Below are positions 19,850-44,031 of a stretch of DNA of 64,000 nucleotides, one piece after another. Position 1 is the stretch's first letter. Every line of letters starts with the position of its first letter. The DNA comes from Rugalucina vietnamica (lineage: Eukaryota > Mollusca > Bivalvia > Lucinida > Lucinidae), in NCBI GenBank assembly GCA_964017185.1, contig OZ024880.1, positions 31,462,329-31,526,328 on the forward strand, given 5' to 3'. Position numbers and translations under genes: made by a program. The notes beneath the pieces were generated by a model. It had not been told where the DNA came from. It saw nothing but the letters and a program-made list of their open reading frames with translations, and did no database searches.

Positions 19850-20170
19850 ACATGTTCATCATCCATAGTGCAAATTATATTTTCCTTTTGGTCCTTTGAG
19901 ATCAGCGAGAGTACATGTATTCTGAGAAATCAGAAAATTATTATCGGCTCAGATTAAGTTTCTAACTACGTTTAGTATATTTGGTCCCTTTATTTATTTT
20001 AATAGTCTTTGTATCGACTATCCTGTTAAAAGTTGCAAAATTACAGCAATTCTACTTCCATGTTGCCAAATCTATAGGGTCACTGAAGAGGCTTAATTAG
20101 CCGAAACCCCCCCCCCCCTTTCATTAATATGCTCACTGCTCTTAAAGGATCTCAGTTTTATTTTTATTCA
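19850..20170 (+). mobile_element. Second hammerhead-family element, ribozyme inactive
   Basis: Matches the 33235-33500 unit along its length (TTTGGTCCTTTGAGATCAGC, ATTATTATCGG, TTGCCAAATCTA). The ribozyme at 20077-20107 keeps GGGTCA, CTGAAGA, stem II and GAAAC, but the stem III and cleavage segment is replaced by a run of C. It ends with the family 3' end (CTCTTAAAGGATCTCAG). Confidence 0.65.
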
Positions 20171-23101: not shown

Positions 23102-25982
23102 TTTAAGTTAAGTTCGAAGAGTTCAGTAAGTTGAGTAACCTAAGTTGAATGTTAAGTTCGATGCATGTTGAATTCGCTGAGTTGGATAAGTTAAAGAATA
23201 AGTTCGATGAGTTGGATAAGTTGAACAGTAAGTTAAATGAGTTGGATAAGTTGCATAAGTTGAACAGTAAGTTCGAGGAGTTGGATAAGTTATACGCTGA
23301 GTTCCATGAGTTTGATAAGCTGCATGTTGAGTTAGATGAGTTGGATAAGTTATACGCTGAGTTTGATGAGTTGGATAAGTTGCATGCTGAGTTCGATGAC
23401 TTGCATAAGTTATACGCGGAGTTGGGTAAGCTGCATAAGTTGAACAGTAAGTTCGATGAGTTGGATGAGTTGGATAAGTTATATGAAATGTTCGATGAGT
23501 TGTATAAGTTGCATGCTGAGTTGGATGAGTTGCATAAGTTGAACTATAAGTTCGTTAAGTTCGATAAGTTGAAAAGTAAGTTGGATGAGTTGGATAAGTT
23601 GTAAGCTGAGTTGGGTAAGTTGCATAAGTTGAACAGTAAGTTAGATGAGTTGGATAAGTTGTAATCTGGGTAGGGTAAGTTGCATAAGTTGAACAGTAAG
23701 TTCGATGAGTTCGATAAGTTGAACAGTAAGTTCGATAAGTTGAACAGTAAGTTCGATGAGCTTGATAAGTTGTAAGCTGAGTTGGATGAGTTGTATAAGT
23801 TGTAAGCTAAGTTGAGTAAGTTCGATAAGTTGAACAGTAAGTTGGATGAGTTGGATAAGTTGTAAGCTGAGTTGGGTAAGTTGAACAGCAAGTTCGATAA
23901 GTTCGATAAGTTGAACAGTAAGTTGGATGAGTTGGGTAAGTTGTAAGCTGAGTTCGATGAGTTGGATAAGTTGTAAGCTGAGTTGGAAGAGTTGGATAAG
24001 TTATACGAAATGTTCGATGAGTTGGATAAGTTGCATGCTGAGTTGGATGAGTTGCATAAGTTGAACTATAAGTTCGTTAAGTTCGATAAGTTGAACAGTA
24101 AGTTGGATGAGTTGGATAAGTTGTAAGCTGAGTTCTATGAGTTGGATAAGTTGTAAGCTGAGTTGGAAGAGTTGGATAAGTTGAACTATAAGTTCGTTAA
24201 GTTCGATACGTTGAACAGTAAGTTGGATGAGTTGGATAAGTTGTAAGCTGAGTTGGGTAAGTTGCATAAGTTGAACAGTAAGTTCGATGAGTTCGATAAG
24301 TTGCAAGCTGAGTTGGGTAAGTTGCATAAGTTGAACAGTAAGTTCGATGAGTTCAATAAGTTGAACAGTGAGTTGGATGAGTTGGATAAGTTATAAGCTG
24401 AGTTCGATGAACAGTAAGTTGGATGAGTTGGATAAGTTGTAAGCTGCGTTGGGTAAGTGGCATAAGTTGAACAGTAAGTTTGATGAGTTCGATAAGTTGA
24501 ACAGTAAGTTCGATGAGTTCGATAAGTTGAACAGTAAGTTGGATGAGTTCGATAAGTTGTAAGCTGAGTTCGATGAGTTGGATAAGTTGCATGTTGAGTC
24601 CGATGAGTTTGATAAGTTATACAATGTGTTCGATGAGTTGGAGAAGTTGCATGCTGGGTTGGGTGAGTTGCGTAAGTTGAACTATAAGTTCGTTAAGTTC
24701 GATAAGTTGAACAGTAAGTTGGATGAGTTGGATAAGTTGTAAGCTGAGTTGGGTAAGTTGCATAAGTTGAACAGTAAGTTTGATGAGTTCGATAAGTTGA
24801 ACAGTAAGTTCGATGATTTTGATAAGTTGAACAGTAAGTTGGATGAGTTGGATAAGTTGTAAGCTGAGTTCGATGAGTTGGATAAGTTGAACAGTAAGTT
24901 GGATGAGTTGGTAAAGTTGTAAGCTGAGTTTGATGAGTTGGATAAATTGTATGTTGAGTCCGATGAGTTTGATAAGTTATACGATGTGTTCGATGAGTTG
25001 GATAAGTTGCATGCTGAGTTGGATGAGTTGCATAAGTTGAACTATAAGTTCGTTAAGTTCGATAAGTTGAACAGTAAGTTGGATGAGTTGGATAAGTTGT
25101 AAGCTGAGTTGGGTAAAGTTCGATAAGTTCGATAAGTTGAACAGTAAGTTCGATGAGTTCGATATGTTGAACAGTAAGTTGAATGAGTTGGATAAGTTGT
25201 AAGCTGAGTTCGATGAGTTGGATGAGTTAAACAGTATGTTGGATGAGTTGGATAAGTTGTAAGATGAGTTCGATGAGTTGGATAAGTTGCATGTTCAGTT
25301 GGATAAGTTGGATAAGTTATACGCTGAGTTCGATGAGTTGCATAAGTTGTAAAGTAAGTTGGATGAGTTGAATAAGTTGTAAGCTGAGTTGGGTAAGTTG
25401 CATAAGTTTAACAGCACGTTCGATGAGTTCGATAAGTTGAACAGTAAGTTGGATGAGTTGGATAAGTTGTAAGCTGAGTTGGGTAAGTTGCATAAGTTGA
25501 GCAGTATGTTGGATGAGTTGGATAAGTTGTAAGCTGAGTTGGGTAAGTTGCATAAGTTGAACAGTAAGTGCGATGAGTTCAATAAGTTAAACAGTAAGTT
25601 GGATGAGTTGGATAAGTTGCATGTTGAGTTGGATGAGTTGGATAAGTTATACAAAGAGTTCGATGAGTTGGATAAGTTGCATGCTGAGTTGGATGAGTTG
25701 CATAAGTTGAACTATAAGTTCGTTAAGTTTGATAAGTTGAACAGTAAGTTGGATGAGTTGGATAAGTTGTAAGCTGAGTTGGGTAAGTTGCATAAGTTGA
25801 ACAGTAAGTTTGATGAGTTCGATAAGTTGAACAGTAAGTTCGATGAGTTCGATAAGTTGAACAGTAAGTTGGATAAGTTGGATAAGTTGTAAGATGAGTT
25901 CGATGAGTTGGGTAAGTTGAACAGTAAATTGGATGAGTTGGAAAAGTTGTAAGATGAGTTCGATGAGTTGGATAAGTTGCAT
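23102..25982 (+). repeat. 30-base minisatellite, about 2.9 kb
   Basis: About 95 units of a 30-base period (for example TTGAACAGTAAG + TTCGATGAG + TTCGATAAG), itself three 10-base subunits like AGTTGGATGA. Because 30 is a multiple of three, long open frames appear on both strands (decapeptide FDELDKLNSK-like on plus, QLIQLIEL-like on minus), but most units contain TTGTAAGCT with an in-frame TAA. Confidence 0.9.
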
Positions 25983-25983
25983 C

Positions 25984-26409
25984 TTCTGTTTTCGGCCTTC
26001 GTCATCGTTTTTATAGCGATGACAGCCAGACTAAAACGAAAAAAATCTTTGACAAAATGTTTTTCATTTTTTCTGCTGGGAGGGTTTGGTACACCATAAC
26101 TCCACCCATGGGTGAGATAGAAAAGTTCTGTTTTTGGCCTTCGTCATCGTTTTCTATAGCGATGACAGCCAGACTAAAACGAAAAAAATCTTTGACAAAA
26201 AATTTTTCATTTTTTCTGCTGGGAGGGTTTGGTACACCATTACTCCGCCCATGGGTGAGATAGAAAAGTTCTGTTTTCGGCTTTCGTCATCGTTTTCTAT
26301 AGCGATGACAGCCAGACTAAAACGAAAAAAAAAATCTTTGACAATAAATTTTTCATTTTTTTTCTGCTGGGAGGGTTTGGTACACCATAACTCCGCCTAT
26401 GGGTGAGAT
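25984..26409 (+). repeat. Three tandem copies of a 142-base unit
   Basis: Units start at 25984, 26126 and 26269, each with TTCTGTTTTCGGCCTTCGTC, ATGACAGCCAGACTAAAACG and GGGAGGGTTTGGTACACCAT. Directly abuts the minisatellite. Confidence 0.85.
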
Positions 26410-33114: not shown

Positions 33115-33140
33115 AGTTTTTAGGCTAAAATAGCCGAAAC
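33115..33140 (+). ncRNA. Decayed hammerhead ribozyme copy
   Basis: Keeps stem II (GGCT/AGCC with loop AAAAT) and GAAAC, but the CUGANGA core and the cleavage triplet are gone. It lies 358 bases upstream of the intact ribozyme in the same orientation, so the two mark one repeat unit. Confidence 0.6.
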
Positions 33141-34540
33141 ATTGCCTTTCTCATTAATATGTTTGCTGCTCTTCAAGGATCTCAGTCTTAATTTCTATTA
33201 CTGCAGCTGGTGTTGTGCCATGTGGCGGCCATAAAAAGTCTCCCCGTACATCATCCGTAGTGCAGATTATATTTTTCGTTTGGTCCTTTGAGATCAGCGA
33301 GGATATTCTGAGAAATCTGAAAATTATTATCGGTTTAGACGCATTTTTTAACCATATTTTAATATATTCGGCCCCATTTTGATAATACTAGTTATATTAT
33401 ATTGACTGCTCCGTTGAAAGTTTAAAATTACAGTAATTCTTTTTGGCTCCATATTGCCAAATCTAAAGGGTCACTGACGAGGCTGAAATAGCCGAAACCG
33501 CGGTATGGCCCATTGCCTTTCTCATAAAGACGGGGGGGGGGGGGGGGGGGGTAGAAAAGTTCGAGGAAAACTGCTGCCAAATTTGTAATTGTCATGGAAA
33601 ATTTACGTTCTCTGTGCATGTTGTAAATTTACCTTTATTCAATATATGCTCAAAATTTGAATCAATTCGAATGAAAATTAAGCATTAAATCACGTGAGTT
33701 TCTAGAACCGGCCCAACGTCGAAGCAACTTCATGCTACACGCATCCATGCCGCTGTTTGCAAGCTCTGAAGCATTTTTGGAATCAACCTGGCATACGGGC
33801 GTCTAATTGTCAGTTCTTTGTGTATAATGCGGTGAATTCTGCCGAAACTACAATTCGATATATTGTGTATTTCACGAATTCTACTCTTTTCTATCACGAC
33901 GATCATTTTCGACAGTATGGCGTTATTTGACGTTACACTGCGCGAGTCGACATGGACGCTTTTCTGGTCGTGTAGAAATTATGCATACTACTTACAGATT
34001 GCCGTTTTCTTAATTTCCTTGTCGCCATATGCGTTTAATTCTCTTAGCAGTGTTTCTCCCTTTTAAAATCCGTTCCAAACACATAATTTTTAAAGGCCGT
34101 TGTTCCCCTCTCATTTTAGGCATAGGGCCTACTTACTAAACAATATGGCCGCTTAACGCCTAAATGACGTCACTCAATTATGTAACGCCATTTTCTTATC
34201 ACCAACATTTGAACTTTACTCATACGTACAAAGTTTGGTGAAAATAGCACGATAAACTATTAAATGCAACGTCATCATTAAACATCGACTTTTTGTAAAA
34301 ATGATCAAAAGTGGGCCGGTAATCGTGATGTGCGGTTTCCATAGCAACCGCTTATAATATTGTAATCATGCCAGAGCAGCAAAATTTGCAGTATAAGTAC
34401 AGAATATGTTTATCTATATAACTGTACGAGTTTAATTCATCTGATTTATAAAATAAGCCATGATGACACTTTTCCGCGAACTTTTTGAACACCCTTCGTA
34501 TCTTTGCTGCTCTTAAAGGATCTCAGTCTTATTTTTTATT
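33121..34540 (+). mobile_element. Hammerhead-carrying (retrozyme-like) insertion
   Basis: Absent from the equivalent place in two other array units (near 37675 and 42710): those run directly from the sequence left of 33121 into the sequence right of 34540. It contains a decayed and an intact hammerhead 358 bases apart. A shared end segment (TGCTGCTCTT, GGATCTCAGTCTTA) occurs at 33163-33195 and again at 34503-34536. A G-run (33532-33551) and about 950 bases without similarity interrupt the second unit; a 49-codon ORF there (33917-34066) is not recognised. Likely non-autonomous, moved by another element's reverse transcriptase. Confidence 0.65.
33468..33511 (+). ncRNA. Hammerhead self-cleaving ribozyme (complete core)
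   Basis: All core parts of a type I hammerhead are present in order. Stem I 5' strand GGGTCA (33468-33473), CTGACGA (33474-33480), stem II GGCT/AGCC (33481-33484 with 33490-33493) around a GAAAT loop, GAAA (33494-33497), a two-pair stem III with a CGCG loop, the GTA cleavage triplet (33503-33505), and stem I 3' strand TGGCCC (33506-33511). The stem I strands pair over six positions with one G-T wobble. Cleavage would fall after 33505. Very short stem III is known for retroelement hammerheads. Confidence 0.85.
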
Positions 34541-43676: not shown

Positions 43677-43736
43677 GTTACTATTTTCGTTAAGCTAGCT
43701 ACGTTTTGCTATGATACAGTATTCTAATCAAAAATG

Positions 43737-43770
43737 CTCACTGCTCTTAAAGGATCTCAGTTTTACTTTA
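43737..43770 (+). mobile_element. 34-base 5'-truncated copy of the hammerhead-family 3' end
   Basis: CTCACTGCTCTTAAAGGATC and 14 further bases of the family 3' end, flanked on both sides by the identical 16-base sequence ATTCTAATCAAAAATG (43721-43736 and 43771-43786). This is the signature of target-primed insertion of a severely truncated retroposon. Confidence 0.8.
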
Positions 43771-44031
43771 ATTCTAATCAAAAATGATTTATTTCTTCTA
43801 ATTTGATTTTGTTGTTGTTACATTTGTTTATCTAGACAGACCTACATACATCAATTTTCGTATTATCGTTAGGTATTTAAAATTGAAAAAAAGGTTTAAT
43901 ATTCTTCAGTGGTATTTTAAAAGGATATATTCTGACGAAAACGCTGATCATTATGTTACTGTCTGGTATAAATAACATTAAAGTGCGTTTAATTATCTAT
44001 ACATCAAAGCAACTCTTAAACCCTTAAGGGA

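Follow-up and report, generated by a model that had tools for sequence, protein, structure and literature searches.

A complete hammerhead motif in a fossil non-LTR retrozyme of Rugalucina vietnamica, and a proposal for paired cutting and Penelope-type copying

The window analyzed here, a stretch of 64,000 nucleotides from contig OZ024880.1 of the lucinid bivalve Rugalucina vietnamica, carries a complete type I hammerhead ribozyme motif with open stem I on its plus strand at 33468-33511. Read directly, the motif is GGGUCA-CUGACGA-GGCU-GAAAU-AGCC-GAAA-CC-GC-GGUA-UGGCCC. Stem I is formed by GGGUCA (33468-33473) and UGGCCC (33506-33511) with six pairs, one of them a G-U wobble; the conserved core blocks are CUGACGA (33474-33480) and GAAA (33494-33497); stem II has four pairs between GGCU (33481-33484) and AGCC (33490-33493); and stem III, ACC-GC-GGU (33497-33504), comprises one A-U and two C-G pairs closed by a two-base tip. 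The invariant core (CUGANGA ... GAA ... H at the cut), stems I-III and the open stem I are all present in this copy, and the cut is predicted after A33505, so that the parts, coordinates and cut site given in a preliminary description of this DNA were borne out by the reading.

The same description had named a covariance search as a check, which failed with the public library and succeeded with a model of the family itself. A scan of the window with Rfam returned no family at its gathering score, the best hammerhead score being 15.1 bits to RF00008 against a gathering score of 48.5, and no Rfam hammerhead with E up to 5 was found in six loci of the family. Rfam was rejected as arbiter, being insensitive to such a short form; its gathering score is a library threshold and no chemical requirement. 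A covariance model built from 29 family copies chosen on the tail of the element, none of them from the window, scored 33468-33511 with 70.8 bits (E 3.1e-21), and also scored positions 20077-20109 with 29.8 bits and 33122-33141 with 9.6 bits (E 1.9). A loose core pattern allowing up to two mismatches is at chance level in the 64-kb window (19 matches against 16.8 expected); just two of them match exactly, each in a copy of the family described below. We regard the predicted ribozyme at 33468-33511 as confirmed in sequence, i.e., as real, complete and not a product of chance, because the family hammerhead pattern with up to three mismatches matched 13,451 places in the whole genome (1.09 Gb in 47 contigs; 6,657 and 6,794 on the two strands) while the reversed pattern used as control matched none, and because the model from outside copies gave the 70.8 bits mentioned above.

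The intact motif lies in an array on the plus strand (33122-33528) of about 1.1 units. The first, partial unit (33122-33199, consensus 287-376), recognized by reading, repeat spacing and model score, has a gutted hammerhead; the second (33195-33528, consensus about 3-335) holds the intact one and has lost its 3' end, since it stops at consensus 335 before a run of 20 G (33532-33551, read directly) that replaces the rest. A decayed upstream copy had been announced and is indeed present at 33122-33141, but it lacks CUGANGA and 13 bases including the cut site. The 358-base spacing was likewise recovered (the repeat spacings are 358 and 371), but it is the spacing of the decayed copy, the unit of the family being about 376 bp. 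The suggestion that circles of about 360 nt could be released here found no support: only one of its two motifs is intact, its own 3' end is lost, and the locus is thus broken and, judged from its sequence, should release no circle, because the upstream hammerhead is gutted and the second unit ends before the G run.

Three further pieces of the same element were found in the window, all on the plus strand. A second copy at 19854-20168 (consensus 54-376) has an intact 3' end and a broken hammerhead (20077-20109), in which a C run replaces both the cut site and stem III. A fragment of the 3' end (consensus 336-373) lies at 34499-34536, and another, at 43737-43773, is flanked by 16-nt direct repeats, ATTCTAATCAAAAATG. 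This is a clear target-site duplication (43721-43736 and 43771-43786, 16 nt) around a fragment of about 37 bases, of which the last ATT (43771-43773) can be assigned to the element or to the repeat. Long G or C runs occur in or beside the hammerhead or 3' region of three copies, at 33532-33551, at about 20107-20118 and in locus L089.

The family to which these copies belong is large. Beside the matches to the hammerhead pattern, a 33-mer of the 3' end matched 11,112 places in the genome and its control none. The repeating unit measures 376 bp with 39.4% GC, and copies are single, partial or arranged head to tail with up to more than five units. The longest stop-free stretch in two tandem units is 73 codons, and the unit does not encode reverse transcriptase (RT) and GIY-YIG, hence it is not itself a Penelope-like element (PLE). 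According to the accessible part of Cervera & de la Pena (2020, PMC7229834), metazoan non-LTR retrozymes carry type I hammerheads in units of 150-450 bp with low GC and target-site duplications of more than 4 bp, and coexist with PLEs. The present family shows a non-coding tandem repeat within 150-450 bp, a type I hammerhead, a GC content below 45-50% and two clear duplications of 11-16 nt (2/95 arrays). The proposal of a non-coding mobile element is supported by thousands of genome matches, tandem units of about 376 bp and a shared 3' end, and its assignment to the retrozyme type gains further from variable 5' ends and the two clear target-site duplications. Almost certainly, therefore, this is an abundant non-coding family of non-LTR retrozymes, and the element in the window is one of its fossils.

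In total 98 loci and the window were read. Apart from 30 loci chosen on the tail, they were picked by exact hammerhead pattern and are biased in favor of the hammerhead; tests of hammerhead conservation were restricted to the 30 tail-chosen loci, and tallies of stem III octamers within loci used both locus sets and the window. L005, L080, L086 and L097 were dropped as overlapping or duplicated, in some counts also L036, L045 and L050, whereas the hammerhead identities and the flank-permutation counts included the tail loci that overlap. Also left out were arrays truncated at the edge of a locus and BLAST pieces below the length or identity limits. Two intact motifs in a row were met in L004 (positions 1501 and 1862), and arrays like this one could, as far as their sequence tells, release units of that size.

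Average copies gave no sign that the hammerhead is better conserved than other parts of the unit, mean identity being 0.900 for the hammerhead and 0.904 for the remainder (55 units). The hammerhead core was intact in 25 of 40 copies; shifted masks gave a mean of 0.39, and 32 of 256 shifts were as high. Average copies thus behave as neutral fossils, and pair counts within stems I-III of 29 copies revealed no covariation beyond shuffles. The placement of variable columns is one of two remaining signs of ribozyme use: in the tail-chosen loci, 21 columns per unit have a second allele of at least 20%, and the three inside the hammerhead fall on sites that the fold tolerates, N7 once and loop II twice (P 0.0015 for three of three at six tolerant of 44 places, the tolerant set having been chosen by the analyst). 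The other sign is stem III, treated below.

The ends of the copies are asymmetric. The common 3' end follows CTCTTAAAGGATCTCAGTTTTATTTTTATT, 64 nt downstream of the ribozyme cut, and was reached (consensus at least 368) by 101 of 137 arrays overall: 50/63 chosen on the hammerhead only, 16/29 bystander arrays in hammerhead-chosen loci, 32/41 in tail-chosen loci, where it is partly a matter of choice, and 3/4 in the window. The 5' ends of the 137 arrays are scattered over the whole unit; a few of those counted are breaks by another inserted repeat and were left in the count. Where both ends lay within the locus and the 3' end was kept (n = 99), array length ranged from 0.07 to 5.42 units with a median of 0.72, 29 arrays being longer than one unit and two longer than two. 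Beside the duplication in the window, a second insertion with clear duplication was found in L006. Over 95 arrays the flanks were more alike than after permutation, an equally high similarity arising in 6 of 2000 permutations, and exact flank repeats of at least eight bases occurred in 2/95 arrays against 0.43 expected, so clear duplications are few.

Units of one array resemble each other: identity was 0.915 within arrays (54 pairs) and 0.840 between them (6,809 pairs), and agreement at diagnostic columns 0.866 versus 0.535. They look as if derived from one template, and the pattern of ends and arrays is as expected from an RT that begins at a single site on a circular or multimeric RNA and then proceeds for varying lengths; local tandem duplication could contribute to it. 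A circle or multimer is, in our view, the probable template rather than a cut linear monomer. Three other patterns were tried and rejected. An accumulation of 5' ends around the cut (311-315), as a sign of cut linear templates, was unconvincing with 5/137 against 1.8 expected (P 0.037, uncorrected and post hoc). A second 3' end shorter by 30-40 nt, resembling the tail pair of PLEs, dissolved into scattered ends (6/137 at 331-350 and 8/137 at 351-360). Template jumping, suggested by retrozymes that start at varying points next to a constant repeat upstream, was discarded, since L034 has retrozyme sequence on both sides and the upstream repeat is another repeat inserted into retrozymes.

Elements that might supply such an RT are present in the genome. 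Of 451 candidates for GIY-YIG matches 150 were scored, with open frames of up to 977 aa, and the 841-base spacer after one GIY-YIG element (L099) carries a minimal hammerhead, GCCU-CUGAAGA-AGCCGAAAGGC-GAAA-GCGCGCUC-AGGC, the 29-base core of which, with up to three mismatches, matched 911 places in the genome. Of the 51 GIY-YIG matches listed for contigs C1 to C5, 21 are followed by an exact copy of this minimal hammerhead 693-724 nt downstream, and no such copy was present within 1.5 kb of the other 30. Judged by GIY-YIG matches, open frames, spacing and the spacer hammerhead, the genome appears to hold Penelope-type elements with minimal hammerheads. Four GIY-YIG matches stand head to tail at a spacing of 3,893 bp in G000:C15:425918-437860; elsewhere, many pairs occur on opposite strands within a few kb. 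Sequence kinship between the retrozyme and the one spacer compared, that of L099, was rejected, the best match (E 0.13) being at chance level.

The Anolis PLE offers a model for the position of the common 3' end (PMC11167929). There, the hammerhead cuts at +26 of the ORF, the RT initiates internally between +111 and +118, which is also where genomic copies end, targets are AT-rich ATT sites, and internal initiation is described as unique to PLEs (PMC11167929). In the same system, ribozyme mutants left insertion in vitro unchanged, cleavage depended on the PLE protein, and reads ending at the cut were absent (PMC11167929); therefore caution is due in assuming that cutting is needed for copying. 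The likeness in layout between the retrozyme end and the Anolis start is an analogy and no proof. That a PLE mobilizes the retrozyme may, on this analogy, be given a nearly even chance; our confidence was lowered because the 3' flanks are just slightly AT-rich (about 69% A+T by manual count over bases 2-12 in 50 flanks, against 64% in the window). The common 3' end past the hammerhead and the GIY-YIG elements of the same genome make the idea directly testable.

A LINE-type non-LTR retrotransposon could have copied the retrozyme instead, by target-primed reverse transcription from a recognized 3' end. SINEs copied by LINEs show a shared 3' end, 5' truncation, short lengths and target-site duplications, and the retrozyme arrays agree with this in their common 3' end, their 5' truncation, a median length below one unit and the duplications of 11-16 nt in the two clear cases. 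A LINE would, however, have to initiate internally, because neither a circle nor a multimer naturally ends 3' there, and internal initiation is the property called unique to PLEs (PMC11167929); the retrozyme moreover ends just past its hammerhead, as does the Anolis PLE (PMC11167929), and no LINE with the same 3' sequence, CTGCTCTTAAAGGATCTCAGTTTTATTTTTATT, was found in the 30 tail-chosen loci inspected. Copying by a LINE consequently seems doubtful to us.

Whichever element provides the enzyme, the ribozyme itself may work in pairs. The stem III octamer at 33497-33504 on the plus strand, ACCGCGGT in DNA and ACCGCGGU in RNA, is its own reverse complement over 8 nt and was proposed, from predicted co-folding and octamer counts, as the contact of a double hammerhead. 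In the predictions, a single motif preferred a non-hammerhead fold (-14.4 to -14.5 kcal/mol) to the hammerhead form (-10.7 or -10.1), the window copy alone giving -14.5 for the other structure and -10.1 for the hammerhead. Two consensus motifs co-folded unprompted into a double hammerhead joined through an eight-pair stem III, at -39.3 kcal/mol compared with -14.4 for one; two window motifs did so at -39.1 kcal/mol with stem II longer by one G-U pair, and a pair of the minimal PLE motifs behaved likewise (-29.7 versus -7.9 for one).

The second line of evidence is the variation of the octamer, counted genome-wide in an identical 25-base context. The GC octamer ACCGCGGT was found 1,884 times and the AT octamer ACCATGGT 666 times, while the single-step forms ACCGTGGT (GT) and ACCACGGT (AC) reached 177 and 90; the palindrome-keeping double change exceeds either single step, with an odds ratio of 78.8. 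The first 100 listed of the 666 AT places represent 82 loci, 14 of which have two or more in tandem, mostly spaced 373-379 bp among the places listed. All 90 places of ACCACGGT contain four close pairs, at 244-600 bp, and inspection by eye of 100 listed of the 177 places of ACCGTGGT showed none. Among 38 multi-unit arrays, ACCATGGT is the sole variant octamer common to every unit of an array, namely in L010 and in the plus array of L075, an inverted arrangement; another variant octamer occurs twice in L011 by segmental duplication.

These counts call for caution, since octamer counts are not events, a double change can spread by descent from founders, and both steps are CpG decay. Other CpG pairs co-vary too (median odds ratio 1.72 over 45 pairs); the stem III pair, at 9.8, ranks third of the 45, and the two above it rest on small counts. 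Taken together, the predicted folds and the variant counts make a dimeric hammerhead quite probable, and the octamer counts may be read as a genome-scale sign of a ribozyme working as a pair.

Cutting by monomers, the palindrome being accidental or kept for other reasons such as a founder effect of CCATGG lineages, draws on the ability of a stem III of two to three pairs to form alone, on the efficient monomer cleavage given for most invertebrate retrozymes in the accessible text of PMC7229834, and on the chance that AT copies trace to few founders. Nearest-neighbor folding, however, favors the double hammerhead when two motifs are present and a different structure when there is one, and few founders fit poorly with ten AT units that, when read, fell into three N7/loop-II haplotypes, with an identity between loci that is no higher among AT units (AT-AT 0.850) than among GC units (GC-GC 0.851), and with at least five parsimony changes of the AT state over nine tips, on a weakly resolved tree. 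The two arrays of 38 with ACCATGGT in all units also speak against monomer cutting, which we consider unlikely.

Very improbable is a satellite DNA whose tandem units arose by unequal crossing-over and in which the hammerhead is today a mere passenger: tandem units, high identity within arrays and, in average copies, the lack of extra conservation of the hammerhead would suit it, but copies are dispersed (all 90 places of ACCACGGT span C1 to C17), arrays are mostly short (29/99 above one unit, 2/99 above two), ends are asymmetric with the 3' end common and the 5' end variable, two target-site duplications are clear, diagnostic hammerhead changes sit at tolerant positions, and the palindrome-keeping double change is in excess.

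We therefore favor, with a probability of roughly 0.7 for the explanation as a whole, a fossil copy of a retrozyme with paired cutting, circles and PLE-type copying. Tandem copies would, as we infer, be transcribed into multimers, in which neighboring hammerheads would join by their palindromic stem III, ACCGCGGU, and cleave after GUA, freeing units of 376 nt; this paired step is based on the predicted fold and the variant counts. Closure of circles by a host ligase is established for other retrozymes and would presumably operate here as well. A borrowed RT, most likely that of a PLE of the genome, would then begin at a fixed site inside the RNA, 64 nt beyond the cut, and follow the circle or multimer for varying lengths, leaving one 3' end and scattered 5' ends over 0.07 to more than five units; for this copying step the end pattern is what was observed and the enzyme what we infer. 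As a more tentative extension, with the odds against it, retrozymes could be strict parasites of PLEs, their 3' end corresponding to the internal start of the PLE RT and their ribozyme being selected as an obligate pair. If so, only tandem transcripts would be cut and only stem III variants keeping the palindrome passed on, and the PLE start site would be set at a fixed distance past the hammerhead and read on circular or multimeric RNA.

Among known systems, compared by description, the family of Mytilus galloprovincialis is closest in size, with about 350-390 bp and about 5,000 motifs in the accessible part of PMC7229834 against 376 bp and 13,451 matches here, and it shares the type I hammerhead, the non-coding unit, the low GC and the tandem repeats. 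Dependence on dimers, proposed here, is a property that the paper assigns to amphibian hammerheads and not to those of most invertebrates, and a common 3' end, a feature of the present family, is not described for metazoan retrozymes in that part of the paper (PMC7229834). The axolotl HHR_Amex1/2, in units of 330-350 bp, likewise have a short stem III and act as dimers; the stem III of HHR_Amex1 has a palindromic tetraloop, whereas here stem III consists of A-U and two C-G pairs and the whole octamer is palindromic (PMC7229834, accessible part). Plant LTR retrozymes (PMC4918200), non-coding units flanked by hammerheads and giving RNA circles, resemble the family in hammerhead and non-coding unit; they differ in their type III hammerheads, their LTRs with primer binding site and their length of about 700 bp (PMC7229834 and PMC7761336, as far as accessible). 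With Poseidon PAc of Anolis (PMC11167929) the retrozyme has in common a minimal hammerhead, tandem arrangement and an insertion end shortly downstream of the cut, at 64 nt compared with 85-92 nt; unlike PLEs its unit codes for nothing, and it showed no sequence kinship to the one PLE-type spacer read in the present genome.

According to the accessible portion of PMC7761336, retrozyme repeats have no conserved motif pointing to a partner element, and the accessible portion of PMC11722881 (2024) keeps LINEs or PLEs as candidate partners; a literature search gave no paper that was, judged by its title, on the partner element. The present family belongs to a known kind, either as a new member or as an unrecognized copy of one already published, and the new information lies in its common internal 3' end and the octamer counts.

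Some other features were recorded in passing. A 2.8-kb minisatellite with periods of 30, 21 and 9 bases (TGAGTTGGATAAGTTG...) and long open frames on both strands occupies 23178-25979 of the window and adjoins a 143-base unit in three tandem copies, 94% alike, at 25984-26409; four ORFs of the window gave no match in Pfam. Many copies of another, very abundant repeat, which ends in CTTGTACCTTT and contains a CCCACCTC/GAGTGGG hairpin, occur in the window and the loci, in some cases inserted into retrozymes, e.g., in L034 on the minus strand. Finally, L037 contains on its minus strand (213-280) a SECIS element scoring 39 bits against an Rfam gathering score of 35, hinting at a selenoprotein gene nearby.
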